Shown: piece after piece, positions 8,240 to 17,767 of the stretch
Layout of the letters: each line of letters begins with the position of its first letter
Position numbering within the stretch: position 1 is the first letter of the stretch
Notes under the pieces: generated by a model
Database searches by the model: none
What the model was told of the DNA's origin: nothing
What the model saw: only the letters and a program-made list of their open reading frames with translations
Made by a program: the position numbers and the translations under genes
Assembly: GCF_014126615.1 (NCBI RefSeq)
Contig: NZ_CP059896.1
Location: 1,002,501-1,066,500, forward strand
Length of the DNA: 64,000 nucleotides
Reading direction: 5' to 3'
Source: Ciceribacter thiooxidans
Lineage (GTDB): Bacteria; Pseudomonadota; Alphaproteobacteria; Rhizobiales; Rhizobiaceae

Positions 8240-8422
8240 TGTCAGCCCCGAAAGGGCAAGGAAAAGAGCAAAAAAAAGAGGGCCACCGGATCGCTCCAGG
8301 GCCCTATAAGTGTGAAGGTCAAAAAACCTCCAGAGGGGAACAGCTGCTGCGGTGGAACTGGGAGGAAAAGCCACCATGTGCATCAGCTGAGTGCGATATG
8401 GTCGTTATTTGTGCAGTGAACA

Positions 8423-10382: not shown

Positions 10383-10612
10383 GGTCGTTCCTTTCAGGGG
10401 TGTCGCAGAAGATGAGCGATCGATTCGCATCGGAGCCCTATGTCTGCCGCCCCATTTATGATTGCTCCATGCGTTTATTCAAGGTCAGCCTTGCAATAAC
10501 AGCACGGCATCCACACCGTACCGCAATAATTGTGCCTGACGAGGACTGATTCTTGCGTAATTGCGGGAATGCGGTACATATCCGCCCAGTCATATCTGAG
10601 AAGGTTTCTCCC

Positions 10613-11080
10613 TTGTTCCGCGCCGAGCTGGACGCCATCGACATCCGTATCCTCCGCGAGCTGCAACGCGACGGCCGCATCACCAATGTCGAGCTCTCCG
10701 AGCGCGTCGGCATTTCCGCGCCGCCCTGCCTGCGCCGCGTGCGCAAGCTGGAGGAGGCCGGCATCATCGAGGGCTACCACGCGTTCCTCAATGCGCCGAA
10801 GCTCGGCTTCGATCTCGTCGCCTTCTGCATGGTCGGCCTCAAGCACCAGTCGGAGAGTAACCTCAAGGCATTCGCCGCGGCGACCGAAAGCTGGCCGGTC
10901 GTGCGCCAGGCCTGGATGGTCTCCGGCGACAGCGACTTCCTGCTCCATTGCGTTGCGGAAAACCTGACGAAGTTCCAGGACTTCGTCATCGAGGTGCTGA
11001 CGGCCAACGACCACGTCCACACCGTCCGCACCATGCTCACCATCCGGCAGGTGAAACGGCTCGGGCTGGTGGAGATTTGA
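10613..11080 (+). CDS. lrp: Lrp/AsnC-family leucine-responsive regulator
   Basis: This 155-residue regulator has an N-terminal HTH (LSERVGISAPPCLRRVRKLE) and a C-terminal RAM ligand-binding domain (WMVSGDSDFLLHCVAENL). The family senses amino acids and controls amino-acid metabolism. The start is taken as TTG at 10613 with GAGAAGG eight bases upstream, because family similarity begins at FRAELDAID; an ATG at 10553 would add 20 unrelated residues. In S. meliloti, as I recall, lrp borders the same LPS core locus. It is followed after 19 bp by a glycosyltransferase gene on the same strand. Confidence 0.93.
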   Translation: MFRAELDAIDIRILRELQRDGRITNVELSERVGISAPPCLRRVRKLEEAGIIEGYHAFLNAPKLGFDLVAFCMVGLKHQSESNLKAFAAATESWPVVRQAWMVSGDSDFLLHCVAENLTKFQDFVIEVLTANDHVHTVRTMLTIRQVKRLGLVEI

Positions 11081-11099: not shown

Positions 11100-11945
11100 A
11101 TGCTGACTTCCAAGAACGTGCTGCTGTGCATCTTCTCCTATAATATGGGGAGCACGCTCGAGCGCTGCATCCTGTCGACCTTCAAGATGTGCCCCGGTTT
11201 CGACGTCGCACTGATCGACGACCAGAGCGAGGATGACGTCACCAGGGCGGTGATTGAAAAATACCGCCCGCGCATGAAGCTCTGCGTGACCTCGACGGAA
11301 GACAAGCAGGGCCGCCGCCACGGCAATCTCTACGGCAATATCCAGCGCATGTGCCGCTATGCGGAGGAGGAGGGATATGACTTCATCTTCCTCATCCAGG
11401 ACGACATGCAGTTCGTCCGGCCGTTCGATGATGCCATCCTGAAGCAGTATGGCGAGCTTTTCGCATCCGATGACAAGGTTCTCCAGGTCGATCCGCGCTT
11501 CCTGCGGAAGGGCTACGCTTACGATATTCTCGAAGATGTGAAGGCCTACCGCTTCCCAGACGGCGACAATCGCCGCTCCTATGCCGATGTCGGCATCCTG
11601 CGCCTGTCGACGCTGAAGAAGCTCGGCTGGACGTTCCGCGAGAGCGAAGCGGAGAACAAGAAGGTTCTCGCCGATCTCGGCTACGTCCGGCTCTTCCCGT
11701 TCTCGCCAATCGTGATGCATGTTCCGTTCCCGCGGACCTATCGCGCCGGCAAGCTGAAAACGTCGCTACTTCCGATGCGGCGCGGCGACTATGAATTTCA
11801 CGAGATGACGCCGCGCGAACGGGAGCGGATGGACCGCCGCAGCCTGCAGGAGATCCCTTATTTCCGGCGCTTCCTGCGACCCAAGAACATGCTGCTGGCA
11901 AGGCTGGTCTATGCTCTCGTCACCGATGCGTCAGCGCTTCGCTGA
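11100..11945 (+). CDS. Glycosyltransferase family 2-like (GT-A) protein in the LPS core locus
   Basis: This 281-residue cytosolic or membrane-peripheral GT-A type protein shows an N-terminal strand LLCIFSYNMGSTLERCILS, the nucleotide-binding VALIDDQSEDD, and a metal-binding D-x-D-like FLIQDDMQF near residue 100. The C-terminal third is basic and arginine rich (TPRERERMDRRS), fitting contact with the membrane and a lipid-linked acceptor. It follows lrp by 19 bp and precedes the GT29-like gene on the same strand. Sugar donor and acceptor are unknown; LPS core assembly is inferred from the lpsB-greA context. Confidence 0.8.
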   Translation: MLTSKNVLLCIFSYNMGSTLERCILSTFKMCPGFDVALIDDQSEDDVTRAVIEKYRPRMKLCVTSTEDKQGRRHGNLYGNIQRMCRYAEEEGYDFIFLIQDDMQFVRPFDDAILKQYGELFASDDKVLQVDPRFLRKGYAYDILEDVKAYRFPDGDNRRSYADVGILRLSTLKKLGWTFRESEAENKKVLADLGYVRLFPFSPIVMHVPFPRTYRAGKLKTSLLPMRRGDYEFHEMTPRERERMDRRSLQEIPYFRRFLRPKNMLLARLVYALVTDASALR

Positions 11946-12025: not shown

Positions 12026-12670
12026 ATGCGAAAGATCGAGAAGAAGTATTTGCGCGTCGTCGGCGCCCTGCGCCGCTTCCTCGGGCTGCAATATCGCTCG
12101 CCGCTCGGCGAGAAGGATGTGTTCGAACTGGTTCGTGACAGGCGCGTGGCACTGGTCGGAAATTCGCGGGCGCTCTCCGGCACGGCGTTCGGCGCGGAGA
12201 TCGACGACCACGATCTCGTCGTCCGGTTCAACAGCGCTCCGATCCCGTCCGCTGTTTCCCACGGGGCGAGAACGGACATTATCGCCACGAGCATCGAACT
12301 CGAGAAGTCGATCATGGCCGAGCGCGGTGCCAGCCATCTCTTCTGGATGTCGCCGCCGCGCAACGCCCTTCAACGCTGGATCGTGCGATGGCCGTCCTTC
12401 TTCCTCTATCCGCGGGAGAGCCACAAGGTCCTCTGCGCCCAGGTTGGCAACCGGCCGACCACCGGGCTGATGGTCATCGAACTTCTCAGCCGTTCTCCGT
12501 GCAGGTCGGTCGACCTCTATGGTTTCGACTTCTACCGGAGCGGCTCGCTCTCGGGCGGGCAGACGAAGGCGACCTCCCCGCACGACTACGATACGGAAGA
12601 GGAATTCGTCTCGCGGCTGATGCTTTCCGACAAGCGCTTCACGCTCCGGCGGCCGGGCCTCGACACGTAA
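12026..12670 (+). CDS. GT29-like (sialyltransferase-motif) glycosyltransferase
   Basis: The 214-residue protein carries the layout of the eukaryotic-type sialyltransferase family GT29. An L-type motif spans residues 41-69 (VALVGNSRALSG ... EIDDHDLVVRFN), where N46 and the aspartates match the CMP-binding pattern. An S-type motif spans 143-168 (RPTTGLMVIELL ... VDLYGFDF). A final motif has His186 and Glu191 in the H-x4-E spacing of the VS motif, His being the usual catalytic base. The protein lacks the transmembrane anchor of Golgi enzymes. The start at 12026 is chosen over TTG 11990 because the upstream part is unlike coding sequence; its Shine-Dalgarno is weak. Since no sialic acid genes are in the window, CMP-Kdo is a plausible donor (inference). 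Confidence 0.75.
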   Translation: MRKIEKKYLRVVGALRRFLGLQYRSPLGEKDVFELVRDRRVALVGNSRALSGTAFGAEIDDHDLVVRFNSAPIPSAVSHGARTDIIATSIELEKSIMAERGASHLFWMSPPRNALQRWIVRWPSFFLYPRESHKVLCAQVGNRPTTGLMVIELLSRSPCRSVDLYGFDFYRSGSLSGGQTKATSPHDYDTEEEFVSRLMLSDKRFTLRRPGLDT

Positions 12671-12677
12671 GGCGTGC

Positions 12678-13697
12678 TCAATCCCGCCGGGCAGCGCGCG
12701 CGATTTCGTCGAAGAGGGCCGCGGTTCGTGTGCGGCACATGGCGATGCCTTTTCCGATCGCCTGCATTTCGTCTTCGGAATAGGCGAGGATGTCGGGGCG
12801 GGCGAGCAGGTCCGGCAGGTCGTCGATCCCGACCAGACGTTTGTCGCCGAGTCCGAGATCGTGCATCAGCGCCCGGATCTTCCAGGAATTCGATTCGATC
12901 GCCAGGAACGGCGTCCGGGTAAAGAGGCAGAAGCAGACGGCGTGGAAACGGCCCGTCACATGCAAGTAGCCGTGCTGGAGGGCGTCGATGAAACCGGCTT
13001 CATCCCTGTTGAACAGCACATTGCCGTGCGTCCAGCCGAATGCGGCGGCGTGGAGCCGGATATAGGCCTCTCGCAGGAGCCTCAGCGGTGTCGCCACATG
13101 CGGCTTGCTCGCCTTGATCGTCCTGAGGATCGGAAGCAGGCGGGCGTCGGCACGTGAATCGGCCAGCGCCAGCAGCCGGCGCGAGACCTCGCGCGAAACG
13201 GAATCACCGACCAGCAGCAGGTCGCGTGTGACGCCCGGCGCGGCCTCCTCGAAGCCGTCGGAAAGGGAGAGGTCCGGGACGAAGCCGACGGCACGGCCAG
13301 CATGACGGCCGGCCTCTTCGGCGCTCCACGAGTCGCGCGTCGAGATGATCGTCATCTTTTCGAGATAACGGGACCATTCTTCTGGGTTTTCCTGATAGAT
13401 CGCGTTGATCAGCGCGACCGGCTTGTCGCCGCGGGCGGGGTGATCGACCACCCGGAGAAGCCGGGCTCCGGCTTTGGCGCCGTGATGGAGCGTTCCTTCG
13501 CCGTTGATGACGATGACGTCGCTCTTCGCCATTGCATCGAGGAAGGGCCGGTCGTTTTCCCAGTCGTTGCGCACGCCGCTGCGCGCGAGCACGCGAATGC
13601 CGCGGCTCGCGAGGTTCTCCTCGATGAGACGCATGACCCGGAAACAGCCGAAATGGCTGTCGCCTCGGGTGTCGTTCAGGATGACCGCATTCGCCAC
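12678..13697 (-). CDS. Polysaccharide pyruvyl transferase family protein
   Basis: The 339-residue product matches the PS_pyruv_trans (CsaB/EpsO/GumL) family, which adds pyruvate ketals to sugars from phosphoenolpyruvate. It has the N-terminal NDTRGDSHFGCFRVMRLI, the conserved DVIVINGEGTLHHG near residue 75 and the C-terminal GRFHAVCFCLFTRTPFLAIESNSWK. GTG 13697 is taken as start because GAAGGA lies just upstream; the in-frame ATG at 13730 has none. It is on the opposite strand to the two flanking sialyltransferase-like genes and convergent with the GT29-like one (7 bp apart). It probably decorates the LPS core or another surface glycan. Confidence 0.85.
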   Translation of the reverse strand: MANAVILNDTRGDSHFGCFRVMRLIEENLASRGIRVLARSGVRNDWENDRPFLDAMAKSDVIVINGEGTLHHGAKAGARLLRVVDHPARGDKPVALINAIYQENPEEWSRYLEKMTIISTRDSWSAEEAGRHAGRAVGFVPDLSLSDGFEEAAPGVTRDLLLVGDSVSREVSRRLLALADSRADARLLPILRTIKASKPHVATPLRLLREAYIRLHAAAFGWTHGNVLFNRDEAGFIDALQHGYLHVTGRFHAVCFCLFTRTPFLAIESNSWKIRALMHDLGLGDKRLVGIDDLPDLLARPDILAYSEDEMQAIGKGIAMCRTRTAALFDEIARAARRD

Positions 13698-13866
13698 AAT
13701 TCGCGTTCCTTCGGCGCTGCACCTTGCCAAGCCGGCACAGGCGTCTTTATCTGTCCGCCTGACGGGGGATCAAGCTCTTTCGGCGGAAAGGTCCGGTAGG
13801 AACGGCGTTCCGGCTGATGATGGGCCAGACGTGGCCGAGGGGCGTGCAGCGAGAAATGGAGTGCGA

Positions 13867-14790
13867 GTGTCTGGATCGAGGTCGAAACCTCCCCTGTGGC
13901 GGAAGGCAGTCAAGCTTCTCATGCGCCTCCGCGGGGCCTCCTTCGCCCATGCCTATGCCTGGACGCCCGGCCTTTCCCTCGCCAAGCCGGCGCGTGGTGG
14001 CGATGTCGGCGCGATCACCTACCGCGCCGCGACGGTCGGAACCCTGTTGCATCCCGATGTCCTGGCGAAGCGGGCCGGCGCGGAGATTTTCGTCGTCGGC
14101 TCTGGTCCTTCGGTGAAAGAGACGCGTGTCGGGGACACCGGCCCCGCGACGGCGATCCTCCTCAACGGGGCGATGAGCCTGATCGGCAACGAGATCGCCA
14201 CCCCTCTTGCCGTCGCCGTCGAGGACGAGCGTTTTGTCTGGCGGCATTTCGACCTGATGCGCGCGAAGATCGATGCCGATCTGCTCTGCCTCTTTTCGGT
14301 CGGCGTCATCCGCGCGATCTGCGAGCTCGACTGCTCCTGGCTCGCGGACAAACGCGTTATCCTGGTCGATGACATCCGCAAGCCCTACCGGGTACGGCGC
14401 CGCAGCATCGCCGAGCTTGCCGGCCTCGCCTCTGCCACCGTGTCGGACGACGGCATCGCCGGCTTTTCGGACGATCCCTCCGTCGGCGTCTTTCAGGGCG
14501 GGTCGGTGGCGATCAGCGCGATCCAGTTCGCCGCCTATTGCCGGCCGCGGTCGATCGGGCTCTTCGGTATCGACATCTCGAATGCGGACCGGCCGCGCTT
14601 TTACGAGAAGACCGGGGACACGGCGAAGTCCGGCATCGCCGGCGCCGAGGCGCGCATTGTCGGGCACATTGTTCTTGCCCATGCGATCTGCCAACGGAAA
14701 GGCATCGATCTCATCAACTATTCGCCCGTCTCGGCGCTGCGCGGGACCGCGATCGGTTACGATCCGCGGTTTGCGGCGACGCCCGGCTGA
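13867..14790 (+). CDS. GT42/DUF115-like Rossmann glycosyltransferase candidate
   Basis: This 307-residue protein has a nucleotide-sugar-binding start IFVVGSGPSVKE at residues 74-85, comparable to the AGNGPSLKE motif of Campylobacter Cst sialyltransferases and to DUF115 proteins. Residues 211-240 (GGSVAISAIQFA then SIGLFGIDIS) parallel the Cst segment with SGVYMCAVAIALGYKEIYLSG, and a late LINYSPVSAL (283-291) parallels LYCLCPNSLL. Identity with Cst would be low, so the family call is tentative. The start GTG 13867 is preceded by GGAG; ATG 13921 is an alternative. It is divergent from the pyruvyl transferase and convergent with lpsB. Confidence 0.6.
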   Translation: MSGSRSKPPLWRKAVKLLMRLRGASFAHAYAWTPGLSLAKPARGGDVGAITYRAATVGTLLHPDVLAKRAGAEIFVVGSGPSVKETRVGDTGPATAILLNGAMSLIGNEIATPLAVAVEDERFVWRHFDLMRAKIDADLLCLFSVGVIRAICELDCSWLADKRVILVDDIRKPYRVRRRSIAELAGLASATVSDDGIAGFSDDPSVGVFQGGSVAISAIQFAAYCRPRSIGLFGIDISNADRPRFYEKTGDTAKSGIAGAEARIVGHIVLAHAICQRKGIDLINYSPVSALRGTAIGYDPRFAATPG

Positions 14791-14805: not shown

Positions 14806-15861
14806 TCACTGCGCGAGTGATGCGTAAATCTCTCCGAGCCGGCGGGCTTCGCGCTCGATGCTGAATTTCTCGGTAACATGGGCCAGCGCCCGGGCGCCTG
14901 CGGCGGAAAGCCGTGCCGGATCGTCCATGAAGGCTCCGGCGGCGGTCGTCATTGCTGCGAGGTCGTCGGCCGGGATGACGACGCCCGTTTCCCGCTCTCC
15001 GGTGACGATCAGTTCGCGGAAGGCGCCGACATCGGTGGCGACCACGGGCACCGCAGTCGCCATCGCCTCCAGCGGCGTCAGGCCGAAGCCTTCCCAGCGC
15101 TGCGGGGCGACGAAGAGGTCGAGCGCCCGGTACCAGTCGTTGATGTTGGTATGCTCGCCGACGAAGAGAATGCGGTCCGAGAGGCCGGCCTTAGCCACCC
15201 GCTCCCTGAGTTCCGTCTCGAAGGCGGCGTGCGAGGCAGTCGCCCGGCCTGCGACGATCGCGATCCAGTCCGGCCGACCGGGAAGCAGGGCGATCATCGT
15301 GTCGACGAAGAGGTCGGTGCCCTTCTGCCGGCGCACGCGGCCGAAGCAGCCGGCGATCTTCCGCTCCGGATCGAGCCCGACCGCCTGCTTGGCTGCCGCC
15401 TTGTCCGCCGGTGGAAAGAAGCGCGCCGTGTCGATGCCGTGCATGACGACGCTGTTTTCGACGTCGAGATAGGCGGCGGTGCGGGCGCTCGTCGCGACGA
15501 CGGCGTCGACGCGGGCAATCAGAGCCTTCGTCCAGCGGGTGTGTCGGCGCTGCGATGCGGAGGTGAAGAGAATCTTGAGCGGCATGCGCAGGAGATCGCG
15601 CAGCACGAGCCCGGCCAGCATCTCGTTGTTGCGCCGCGCGTGCCAGACGCGCTTGTGCCCGTTTCGCGGTCTCTTCCAGAGGCGCAACAGGTCGGCATAG
15701 CCGATCCGCGGCAGCGAGTTGGGAAGGCCGGGCCCGAGGGTCGCAACCTTCTGGCCGAGCCGGTTCTGGACGGGAACGAGCTGGATGATCGTCGAGGTGA
15801 CGCCGGAAAGCCTCTGCTTGAAGTTCGGCGCGATGACCTCGACGTCGGCGATATCCGTCAC
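14806..15861 (-). CDS. lpsB: LpsB, GT4-family LPS core mannosyltransferase
   Basis: This 351-residue GT-B, GT4 glycosyltransferase equals the length of rhizobial LpsB, which transfers mannose to the inner LPS core. Family features are IAGCFGRVRRQKGTDLFVD near residue 170, the donor-binding RWEGFGLTPLEAMATAVPVVA stretch (given in parts, near residue 255) with its E-x7-E glutamates, and a basic N-terminal half. It follows greA by 31 bp in the same direction, as in S. meliloti. Loss of this gene in rhizobia truncates the core and harms symbiosis (established for S. meliloti). Confidence 0.92.
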   Translation of the reverse strand: MTDIADVEVIAPNFKQRLSGVTSTIIQLVPVQNRLGQKVATLGPGLPNSLPRIGYADLLRLWKRPRNGHKRVWHARRNNEMLAGLVLRDLLRMPLKILFTSASQRRHTRWTKALIARVDAVVATSARTAAYLDVENSVVMHGIDTARFFPPADKAAAKQAVGLDPERKIAGCFGRVRRQKGTDLFVDTMIALLPGRPDWIAIVAGRATASHAAFETELRERVAKAGLSDRILFVGEHTNINDWYRALDLFVAPQRWEGFGLTPLEAMATAVPVVATDVGAFRELIVTGERETGVVIPADDLAAMTTAAGAFMDDPARLSAAGARALAHVTEKFSIEREARRLGEIYASLAQ

Positions 15862-15892: not shown

Positions 15893-16369
15893 TCAGCCCC
15901 ACTGCACCGCCAGGATCTCGTAGGCCTTGGAGCCGCCGGGGGCGACGACCTCGATCGAGTCGCCCACTTCCTTGCCGATCATGGCCCGCGCGATCGGCGA
16001 GGAGATCGAGATGCGGCCGGCCTTCACGTCGGCTTCCTGGTCGCCGACTATCTGGTAGACCTTCTCTTCGTCCGTGTCCTCGTCGACGAGCTTCACCGTC
16101 GCGCCGAACTTGATCTTGGAACCCGACATCTTCGAAAGGTCGATGACTTCCGCGCGCGCAATCAGGTCCTCGAGTTCCGTGATACGACCCTCGTTGTGGC
16201 TCTGGGCTTCCTTGGCGGCGTGGTACTCGGCATTTTCGGAAAGGTCGCCATGGGCGCGCGCTTCCGCGATCGCCTCGATGATCCGCGGGCGCTCTTCCTG
16301 TTGCCGCCAGCGCAGTTCTTCCTGCAGCTTGACGAAACCGTTCTGCGTCATCGGTACCTTTTCTACCAT
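15893..16369 (-). CDS. greA: Transcript cleavage/elongation factor GreA
   Basis: This 158-residue protein binds the RNA polymerase secondary channel and stimulates cleavage of backtracked transcripts. The N-terminal coiled coil (residues ~10-75) carries the acidic tip [15 protein letters not shown], and the C-terminal FKBP-like domain ends in [18 protein letters not shown] and [11 protein letters not shown]. Length is exactly that of the family. ATG 16369 with AAGGAAG upstream is used instead of the ATG 30 bases earlier. It leads the greA-lpsB operon. Confidence 0.97.
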
Positions 16370-16525
16370 TTCGACTTCCTTCGCATGTGGCGCCTGCATG
16401 GTGCAGACATAAAAGAAAACAGGTCCCGGAGCGGTACTCCGGAACCATGTCTCAAATCACTTCGATGGAAAGTATAGCAGCGCGGTCGGAATTTCCAGAG
16501 TTTTTGTCGAGACCGCCTGCGGAGT

Positions 16526-17767
16526 TCAGGCCTGCCAGGGTTCGATCCTGTAGTGGGAGGGAAGGTTTTCCGGCCGATAGGAGCCGCCCGGCAGGGGCGC
16601 GGTCATACGGTCGACGACCGACTGGTGGACGAGGGCATCCGCGGGGATGAAACGCGGGTCGGAAAGCGGCAGATAGACGCCGCCTGCGGTGCCGTTTCGC
16701 CGCCACGAGCTGTCCGGGATCCGCCGCGGCACCAGCTCCAGAAGGCGCCAGCCGAGGTTCATGCTGTCGTGATCTGCTCCCGTGGCGTCCGGCGCGACAT
16801 AGGGCTTTTGCGGGTTCTGCCCGAGCACGATCTCGTTCACCGTGCGCGTGATGACCTCGAGGCCCTTGTCGATCGCCTCCTTGACCATCCATGCGAGCGG
16901 AATCTTGATGAGCGTGCTTTCCCTTTCCGGATGACCGCCGCCGACATCCCCGTGGTAGCCGGCGAACCAAACTTCCTTGACGTCCTGCGGCGGAGGATCG
17001 TCCTTCGGCCGGAAGGGGCCGCCCCAGTACGGCTGGTCGGTGTCCCAATATTGCGGCCGGAACATCGTTCGTCGCTCGTCAATTGCCAGCGCCTGGCGAA
17101 CGATCTCGACGCTCGGATTGCGCCGGGTGAAGGGATGTGTCTTCAGGCGCACGCCCGAGGGACCGTTTTCGATCACCGAACCGACGGTGTCGAAGAGCCC
17201 GAGCATCTTGATCTTCGGGCGGAAGGTCTTCAGCGTCCGCTCATGCAGGCGCATCGCGGAAAATGCCGAGGGTGTTTCCTCGCCGGGGCCGGCATCGCTC
17301 TCCGGTGGCGGCACGAAATCCGGGATCGCCTTGTAGGCGCTGTAGGCATAGTCGACGAGGTTCAGGTTGTGGCGGCTGACGAGCCCGAGCGCGTGGATGA
17401 AGCCGGCCAGCACCCTTGCGGTATAGGCGCCGCGACTGAAGCCGAAGAGAAAGAGGCGATCGTGCTCTCCGTCCTTCTTTCCGCCCCGGGCGCGCGGCGC
17501 CGCTTCGTAATTCTCGACGATGAAGCGGTAGGCGTCCTTGACGTTCTGATCGAGGCCCCATCCGGTCGCCATGCCCCAGATCTCGACCGTATCGCGATAG
17601 GGCTTCAGCCACGCGTTCACTGCGCCGAAGGTGCCGACGCCCGGATCGTAATAGACGATCTGGTCGGTGTTCCGCTTCAGCGCCCCGAAGAGGCGGAGGA
17701 TGTTGGTTCTGTCCTCGGCAATCTCGTTCGAGGTGCCATCGAACAGGAGAACGATGTTCTTCGCCAT
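16526..17767 (-). CDS. DUF2235 alpha/beta hydrolase (Tle-like phospholipase fold)
   Basis: This 413-residue protein has the DUF2235 domain found in fungal proteins and in type VI lipase effectors (Tle). Catalytic elements are visible: the nucleophile S111 in FGFSRGAYTAR (G-x-S-x-G), Asp193 in LGLFDTVGSV, and His272 in FAGYHGDVGGGHP. The N-terminus KNIVLLFDGTSNE is the classic first strand. It has no signal peptide and no VgrG, PAAR, Hcp or immunity-like gene beside it, so a secreted effector role is not supported; a cytosolic esterase is as likely. Confidence 0.85.
   Translation of the reverse strand: MAKNIVLLFDGTSNEIAEDRTNILRLFGALKRNTDQIVYYDPGVGTFGAVNAWLKPYRDTVEIWGMATGWGLDQNVKDAYRFIVENYEAAPRARGGKKDGEHDRLFLFGFSRGAYTARVLAGFIHALGLVSRHNLNLVDYAYSAYKAIPDFVPPPESDAGPGEETPSAFSAMRLHERTLKTFRPKIKMLGLFDTVGSVIENGPSGVRLKTHPFTRRNPSVEIVRQALAIDERRTMFRPQYWDTDQPYWGGPFRPKDDPPPQDVKEVWFAGYHGDVGGGHPERESTLIKIPLAWMVKEAIDKGLEVITRTVNEIVLGQNPQKPYVAPDATGADHDSMNLGWRLLELVPRRIPDSSWRRNGTAGGVYLPLSDPRFIPADALVHQSVVDRMTAPLPGGSYRPENLPSHYRIEPWQA

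Follow-up and report, generated by a model that had tools for sequence, protein, structure and literature searches.

The 64,000-nucleotide stretch of Ciceribacter thiooxidans DNA analysed here (the window) carries a GT29 gene in a lipopolysaccharide (LPS) core locus bounded by the genes for GreA and an Lrp/AsnC regulator (Table 1). This greA-lpsB-...-lrp layout confirms the LPS core setting proposed in a first-pass annotation of the sequence. The pyruvyltransferase-like gene is convergent with the GT29 gene, with 7 bp separating both stops, and the WaaZ-like reading frame is open from 13504, a portion that overlaps the pyruvyltransferase-like gene. At 351 aa, LpsB has the length of its S. fredii HH103 counterpart. 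The available text on the S. meliloti/S. fredii region describes greA, lpsB and variable glycosyltransferases (PMC3788101), and the same greA-lpsB-lpsCDE frame is seen in one genome that we compared (L174); where those species have lpsE, lpsD and lpsC, however, the window has the WaaZ-like, pyruvyltransferase-like, GT29 and GT2 genes. Among 20 Rhizobiaceae genomes (L174-L193) the lpsB-lrp interval varies strongly and resembles a swapping glycosyltransferase cassette. No GT29 gene was found in these lpsB regions (0 of 20, from the regions of 61 genomes), nor was PF00777 matched in three other genomes of the genus.

Table 1. Features of the GT29 locus, with positions in the window. Counts of loci refer to the best 80 of 213 GT29 loci.
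Feature	Position	Strand	Basis or remark
Lrp/AsnC regulator, one locus flank	10553..11080	+	Pfam; together with GreA in 10/80 loci
GT2-family glycosyltransferase, directly upstream of GT29	11100..11945	+	PF00535, 26.9 bits (cut-off 23.3)
GT29 protein, LPS-core type, 214 aa	12026..12670	+	intact ORF (start ATG at 12026, stop ends at 12670); Pfam; AlphaFold2 model
L-type sialylmotif region, residues 39-87, best Pfam stretch	12140..12286	+	PF00777 positions 55-104; pig ST3Gal1 alignment
S-type motif PTTG...LYGFDF, residues 144-169	12455..12532	+	ST3Gal1 alignment; conservation in 86 domains
S-x-S, residues 172-174, where motif III (H-Y) is expected	12539..12547	+	S172 in 83/86, S174 in 86/86 domains
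VS-type motif H-x4-E (HDYDTE), residues 186-191, putative catalytic base His186	12581..12598	+	
Polysaccharide pyruvyltransferase-like protein	12678..13730	-	PF04230, 43 bits (cut-off 25.3)
WaaZ-like protein (Kdo III transferase-like)	13840..14790	+	start approximate
LpsB, GT4 core glycosyltransferase	14806..15861	-	named by locus layout and length
GreA, opposite locus flank	15893..16399	-	Pfam

By sequence and predicted fold the protein belongs to GT29, as the first-pass annotation had proposed, and its length equals that of its closest homologues. Pfam PF00777, which we used as the GT29 profile in place of CAZy's own, matched it with 56.7 bits (E 3.3e-15) against a curated cut-off of 23, so that the profile search set beforehand as a test gave a match far over the cut-off. 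The structure prediction agreed: the AlphaFold2 model has the GT-A-like variant fold of GT29, with GT29 structures as its top structural matches. Together the profile and the predicted fold rule out a chance motif match. A search of PDB sequences (E<=10) returned 8 distinct sequences, all animal sialyltransferases, the best being pig ST3Gal1 (1.3e-8); the solved GT29 structures that we found were also all sialyltransferases, several with CMP-type ligands. Membership in GT42 was rejected, as the GT42 structures (CstII and Cst-I, about 13% identity) are not the nearest fold, and so was membership in GT73/WaaZ, as the protein matches no NCBIfam model at E<=1. WaaZ is an LPS-core Kdo enzyme too, of a different sequence family, and a WaaZ-like gene lies two genes off in the window. 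This neighbour matched no PDB sequence; its fold is of the same superfamily, which we count in favour of a Kdo function.

The L-type (VALVGNSRALSGTAFGAEIDDHDLVVRFN), S-type (PTTG...DLYGF) and VS-type (HDYDTE) motifs follow one another in the order claimed earlier for these 214 residues, as alignment and conservation bear out, and HDYDTE, with H186, aligns with HDGDFE of pig ST3Gal1. N46, R67, P72, G80, W107, G147, G166, F167, D168, F169 and S174 are found in all 86 related domains of the same clade. The earlier suggestion that the catalytic residues are kept holds only in part. H186 and E191 (85/86 each), D60 and N69 (84/86 each), D63 (82/86) and the invariant D168 stand, but the acid of motif III is absent: none of the 86 domains has an H[YFW], as in the H-Y-[YFWH] pattern, on the way from its S motif to its VS histidine, and S-x-S occupies the expected stretch. 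In that stretch 74 domains have no histidine, 10 have one elsewhere, and 2 fell outside the pattern and were read by eye. Between the S motif and the VS histidine a displaced motif III was rejected, since none of these 10 histidines is followed by Y, F or W and, in a wider set of 143 homologous proteins, the 11 with a histidine there never have it before Y, F or W. In one MAG (L068, 9545-10891, +) the GT29 reading frame appears shifted ahead of the VS motif. The available text of PMC6884586 gives the His and Tyr of hST3Gal1 motif III as each essential, the His being the catalytic acid. Because both are missing here, the sequence makes catalysis by the animal mechanism unlikely, and the protein could be inactive.

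The relatives of the gene show linkage to LPS genes. A genome-collection scan confirmed 213 GT29 loci, and the best 80 of these, used for locus counts, come from Rhizobiaceae and mostly Rhodobacterales. Within their fetched flanks we found LpsB in 50 of the 80 (median 53% identity), a pyruvyltransferase-like gene in 21, a WaaZ-like gene in 9 and a homologue of the GT2 gene in 6. LpsB is coupled to GT29 in 38 of these best 80, 36 times by a 4-bp overlap, once across a 3-bp gap (L054) and once in a fused ORF; this last, in a Brevirhabdus MAG (L093, 8729-10546, +), is a single ORF with both Pfam domains and is either a fusion or an assembly error. In the same 80 loci GT29 is coupled to the pyruvyltransferase-like gene 14 times (in L044 by a 4-bp overlap), has WaaA (PF04413) upstream 11 times, ten of them as WaaA-pyruvyltransferase-GT29 and one overlapping GT29 by 14 bp (L100), and is overlapped by a KpsC/KpsS-type PF05159 gene 4 times. 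The commonest glycosyltransferase gene partners are thus LpsB and WaaA. Among five clade members from other draws, LpsB adjoins GT29 in three (L204, L205, L206), and WaaA plus a pyruvyltransferase-like gene accompany it in another (L202). The class-wide draw (profile A2 in 4/385) and the phylum-wide draw (PF00777 in 9/398) yielded too few matches to tabulate co-occurrence. As a separate observation, L035, L041 and L068 share a gene cluster (c304) beside lpsB, which Pfam assigns to PF05159 in L035 and L041.

The first-pass annotation had favoured CMP-Kdo over CMP-sialic acid as the donor, and the enzyme inventory, along with the LPS-gene coupling, supports this. The genome has a single CMP-ulosonate synthetase, KdsB, matched by its NCBIfam equivalog at 420.7 bits (cut-off 281), which makes CMP-Kdo available. 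Its second and last CTP_transf_3 match is GlmU, and no NeuB was found by a search whose control was positive in 9 of 14 known genomes, so a supply of CMP-sialic acid was not detected. Because motif III and this supply were both looked for and neither was found, we do not file the protein as a four-motif eukaryotic-type sialyltransferase. The wider genome tests covered 50 of the best 80 loci (selected before any result was known: 11 records of rhizobial type and 39 'NZ_' records from Rhodobacterales), with L091 and L100 among the 30 left out. All 50 of these GT29-carrying genomes have a KdsB-class enzyme and 7 have NeuB. NeuA-sized extra cytidylyltransferases (54-86 bits) are confined to the same 7, while two genomes lacking NeuB (G310, G317) show a further KdsB-class match. 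Against a background of 59 in 297 Rhizobiaceae genomes NeuB is not enriched in the carriers (Fisher p 0.44), in samples that differ in taxonomy. Linkage to Kdo genes does not in itself prove a Kdo donor.

A contrasting group of GT29 proteins has members beside sialic acid genes. A midpoint-rooted tree of 161 domains, bacterial sequences only, places the 86 LPS-type domains in one clade (support 0.979), separate from a NeuB-linked clade of 31 domains (0.97) and a short Rhizobiaceae clade of 19 (0.991). An origin of the LPS-type clade by horizontal gain from animals or plants is unsupported by this bacteria-only tree. The NeuB-linked clade was placed beside NeuB in two genomes only, where strong matches (>600 bits), one among the 50 genomes (G304) and one among the 297 (G234), each lie 3.8 kb from NeuB. 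The 407-aa GT29 of G234 has SHYYG ahead of its VS motif and is also near a NeuC-type epimerase gene (NCBIfam over cut-off), and G304 has both an HY-bearing, NeuB-linked GT29 and an LPS-type gene, on separate contigs. HY is present in 23 of the 31 domains of this clade (4 have another His, 3 none and 1 is unreadable); among 20 aligned rows His374 is kept in 14 and Tyr375 in all. Motif III as a strict nonulosonate marker is weakened by these numbers and by three contrary cases without HY. In L091, of the LPS clade, the genes directly upstream of GT29 form a pseudaminic-acid-type cluster (PseI over cut-off), L100, also in that clade, has NeuB-like and PseF-like genes 1.8-3 kb downstream, and NeuB lies about 5 kb from L208, a weak GT29 match of 27 bits. 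Because of these loci, and because the available texts report neuraminic acid attached to the core Kdo of Loktanella rosea, of the Rhodobacterales (PMC3210612), and Neu5Ac in Rhodobacter capsulatus LPS (PMC9631793), some LPS-type members may use a nonulosonic acid. Other forms were seen outside the LPS-type clade. Short GT29-like proteins of about 215-226 aa with PSTG...GFxWEGWxxHxW (L209-L214, L219, L223-L234) make up the 19 Rhizobiaceae domains of the tree, and in L215 (8739-10985, -, 749 aa) and L216 (8690-10891, -, 734 aa) a GT29 domain is followed by a pyruvyltransferase domain within a single frame.

From the sequence family, predicted fold, motif status, gene linkage and enzyme inventory we infer, with a probability of roughly 0.6, that the GT29 protein of the greA-lpsB-lrp locus uses CMP-Kdo to add Kdo to the LPS core. 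Such an inverting transferase would be soluble, and the acceptor hydroxyl would be activated by His186 of H-x4-E acting as base. Two L-motif asparagines, Asn46 and Asn69, together with T145/T146 in the S motif, may hold the CMP-ulosonate. Since the acid histidine of motif III is missing, we propose that other groups stabilise the phosphate leaving group without a general acid, possibly S172-x-S174. The acceptor would be the inner-core sugar made by LpsB or WaaA, the glycosyltransferases whose genes most often partner GT29.

The evidence could be read in other ways. A true sialyl- or nonulosonyltransferase, attaching a sialic, pseudaminic or legionaminic acid residue to core Kdo, would suit the GT29 family name and fold, the nonulosonate genes near L091 and L100, the Loktanella rosea structure (PMC3210612) and the treatment of bacterial GT29s as sialyltransferases in the available text of PMC5811610. 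We consider it quite improbable for the window protein, given that NeuB is missing from its own genome and from 43 of the 50 carriers, with no enrichment over background, and that the NeuB-linked GT29s form another clade, mostly with HY. A NeuB-free donor route or scavenged sialic acid might still supply it, but the NeuA-sized enzyme is missing too. The LPS-gene coupling suits any core sugar and motif III is absent, so an LPS-core glycosyltransferase with another donor in the GT29 fold, for example a UDP-sugar, might also be imagined; the plant GALT29A is said to have galactosyltransferase activity. This is improbable when the VS histidine and, on the CMP side, the L and S motifs hardly vary, and the solved GT29 structures found are all sialyltransferases, several of them with CMP-type ligands.

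The missing catalytic acid raises the further idea of a dead protein that partners LpsB, WaaA or the pyruvyltransferase-like protein, or acts as their scaffold. The overlapping genes and the LpsB-GT29 fused ORF (L093) would agree with such a role, as would the two GT29-pyruvyltransferase fusions (L215, L216), although these are outside the LPS-type clade. Retention of H186 and E191 in 85 of 86 domains speaks against loss of catalysis, and GT42, with the same fold, is active without a motif III histidine. We regard a dead partner as very unlikely, and transfer of Kdo from CMP-Kdo as the preferred reading.

Compared with animal GT29 enzymes (ST3Gal1, ST6GalNAc2, ST8Sia3, ST6Gal1), the window protein lacks the H-Y of motif III, has 214 aa against 265-318 residues in the solved chains, is predicted to have no separate anchor region, its model beginning in a helix, and comes from a genome without the sialic-acid pathway (no NeuB). 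A precedent for the Kdo reading is Arabidopsis RCKT1/MGP2, which the available text of PMC11288761 presents as a GT29 protein and proposed CMP-Kdo transferase of rhamnogalacturonan-II, and which thus shares family and proposed donor with the window protein. Unlike the latter, RCKT1/MGP2 is a Golgi membrane protein with a pectin acceptor, and the plant Kdo enzyme has, according to the same text, resisted assay. The first-pass remark that GT29 is known mainly from animals and plants needs qualifying, since bacterial GT29s in alpha-proteobacteria were already published by Petit et al. 2018 (PMC5811610), whose available text counts 19 alpha-proteobacterial sequences among 23 bacterial ones and names Loktanella. 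These very likely belong to the same broad group as the window protein. Where that text infers a sialyltransferase, we measured LPS-operon linkage, donor inventory and the loss of motif III. It also describes motif III as recovered in the 23 bacterial sequences, which does not match the LPS-type clade; its set may include other clades.

In the openly accessible literature searched we found no characterised bacterial GT29, and neither a motif III-less, LPS-coupled, Kdo-supplied GT29 subfamily nor its contrast with NeuB-linked members; bacterial GT29 as such was already known. Bacterial GT29s are annotated, and treated in the literature, as sialyltransferases, and most LPS-type genomes cannot make sialic acid via NeuB; if Kdo is added, many genome annotations are misleading. 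An unassigned LPS-core step in Rhodobacterales and some Rhizobiaceae would then gain a candidate gene, and a GT29 Kdo transferase would become accessible in the form of a small soluble protein. Because a bacterial member without the motif III histidine likely attaches Kdo, the founding job of the family may have been Kdo transfer. In such a history GT29 began as a motif III-less alpha-proteobacterial LPS-core CMP-Kdo transferase, the animal donor switch came with motif III, and RCKT1 keeps Kdo, a sequence of events that we find rather doubtful as a whole. It reverses the direction in the available text of PMC5811610, where eukaryotic GT29 comes from proteobacteria, sialyl transfer is ancestral and Kdo is a plant shift, and our data make the reverse order worth testing. 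If it is true, one genome, Ciceribacter sp. T2.26MG-112.2, would still show the split, carrying both an LPS-type GT29 and one that bears HY and is linked to NeuB. Where animal sialyltransferases came from also becomes testable, in terms of which donor came first and why motif III was gained or lost.

Two further features of the window lie outside the locus. An alphaproteobacterial ar15 small RNA (RF02345) is found at 8274-8388 (-), scoring 114.9 bits where the gathering score is 40, and a gene at 16526-17767 (-), adjoining greA, encodes a protein whose catalytic domain is of the T6SS Tle1-like phospholipase type (PF09994, 257 bits).
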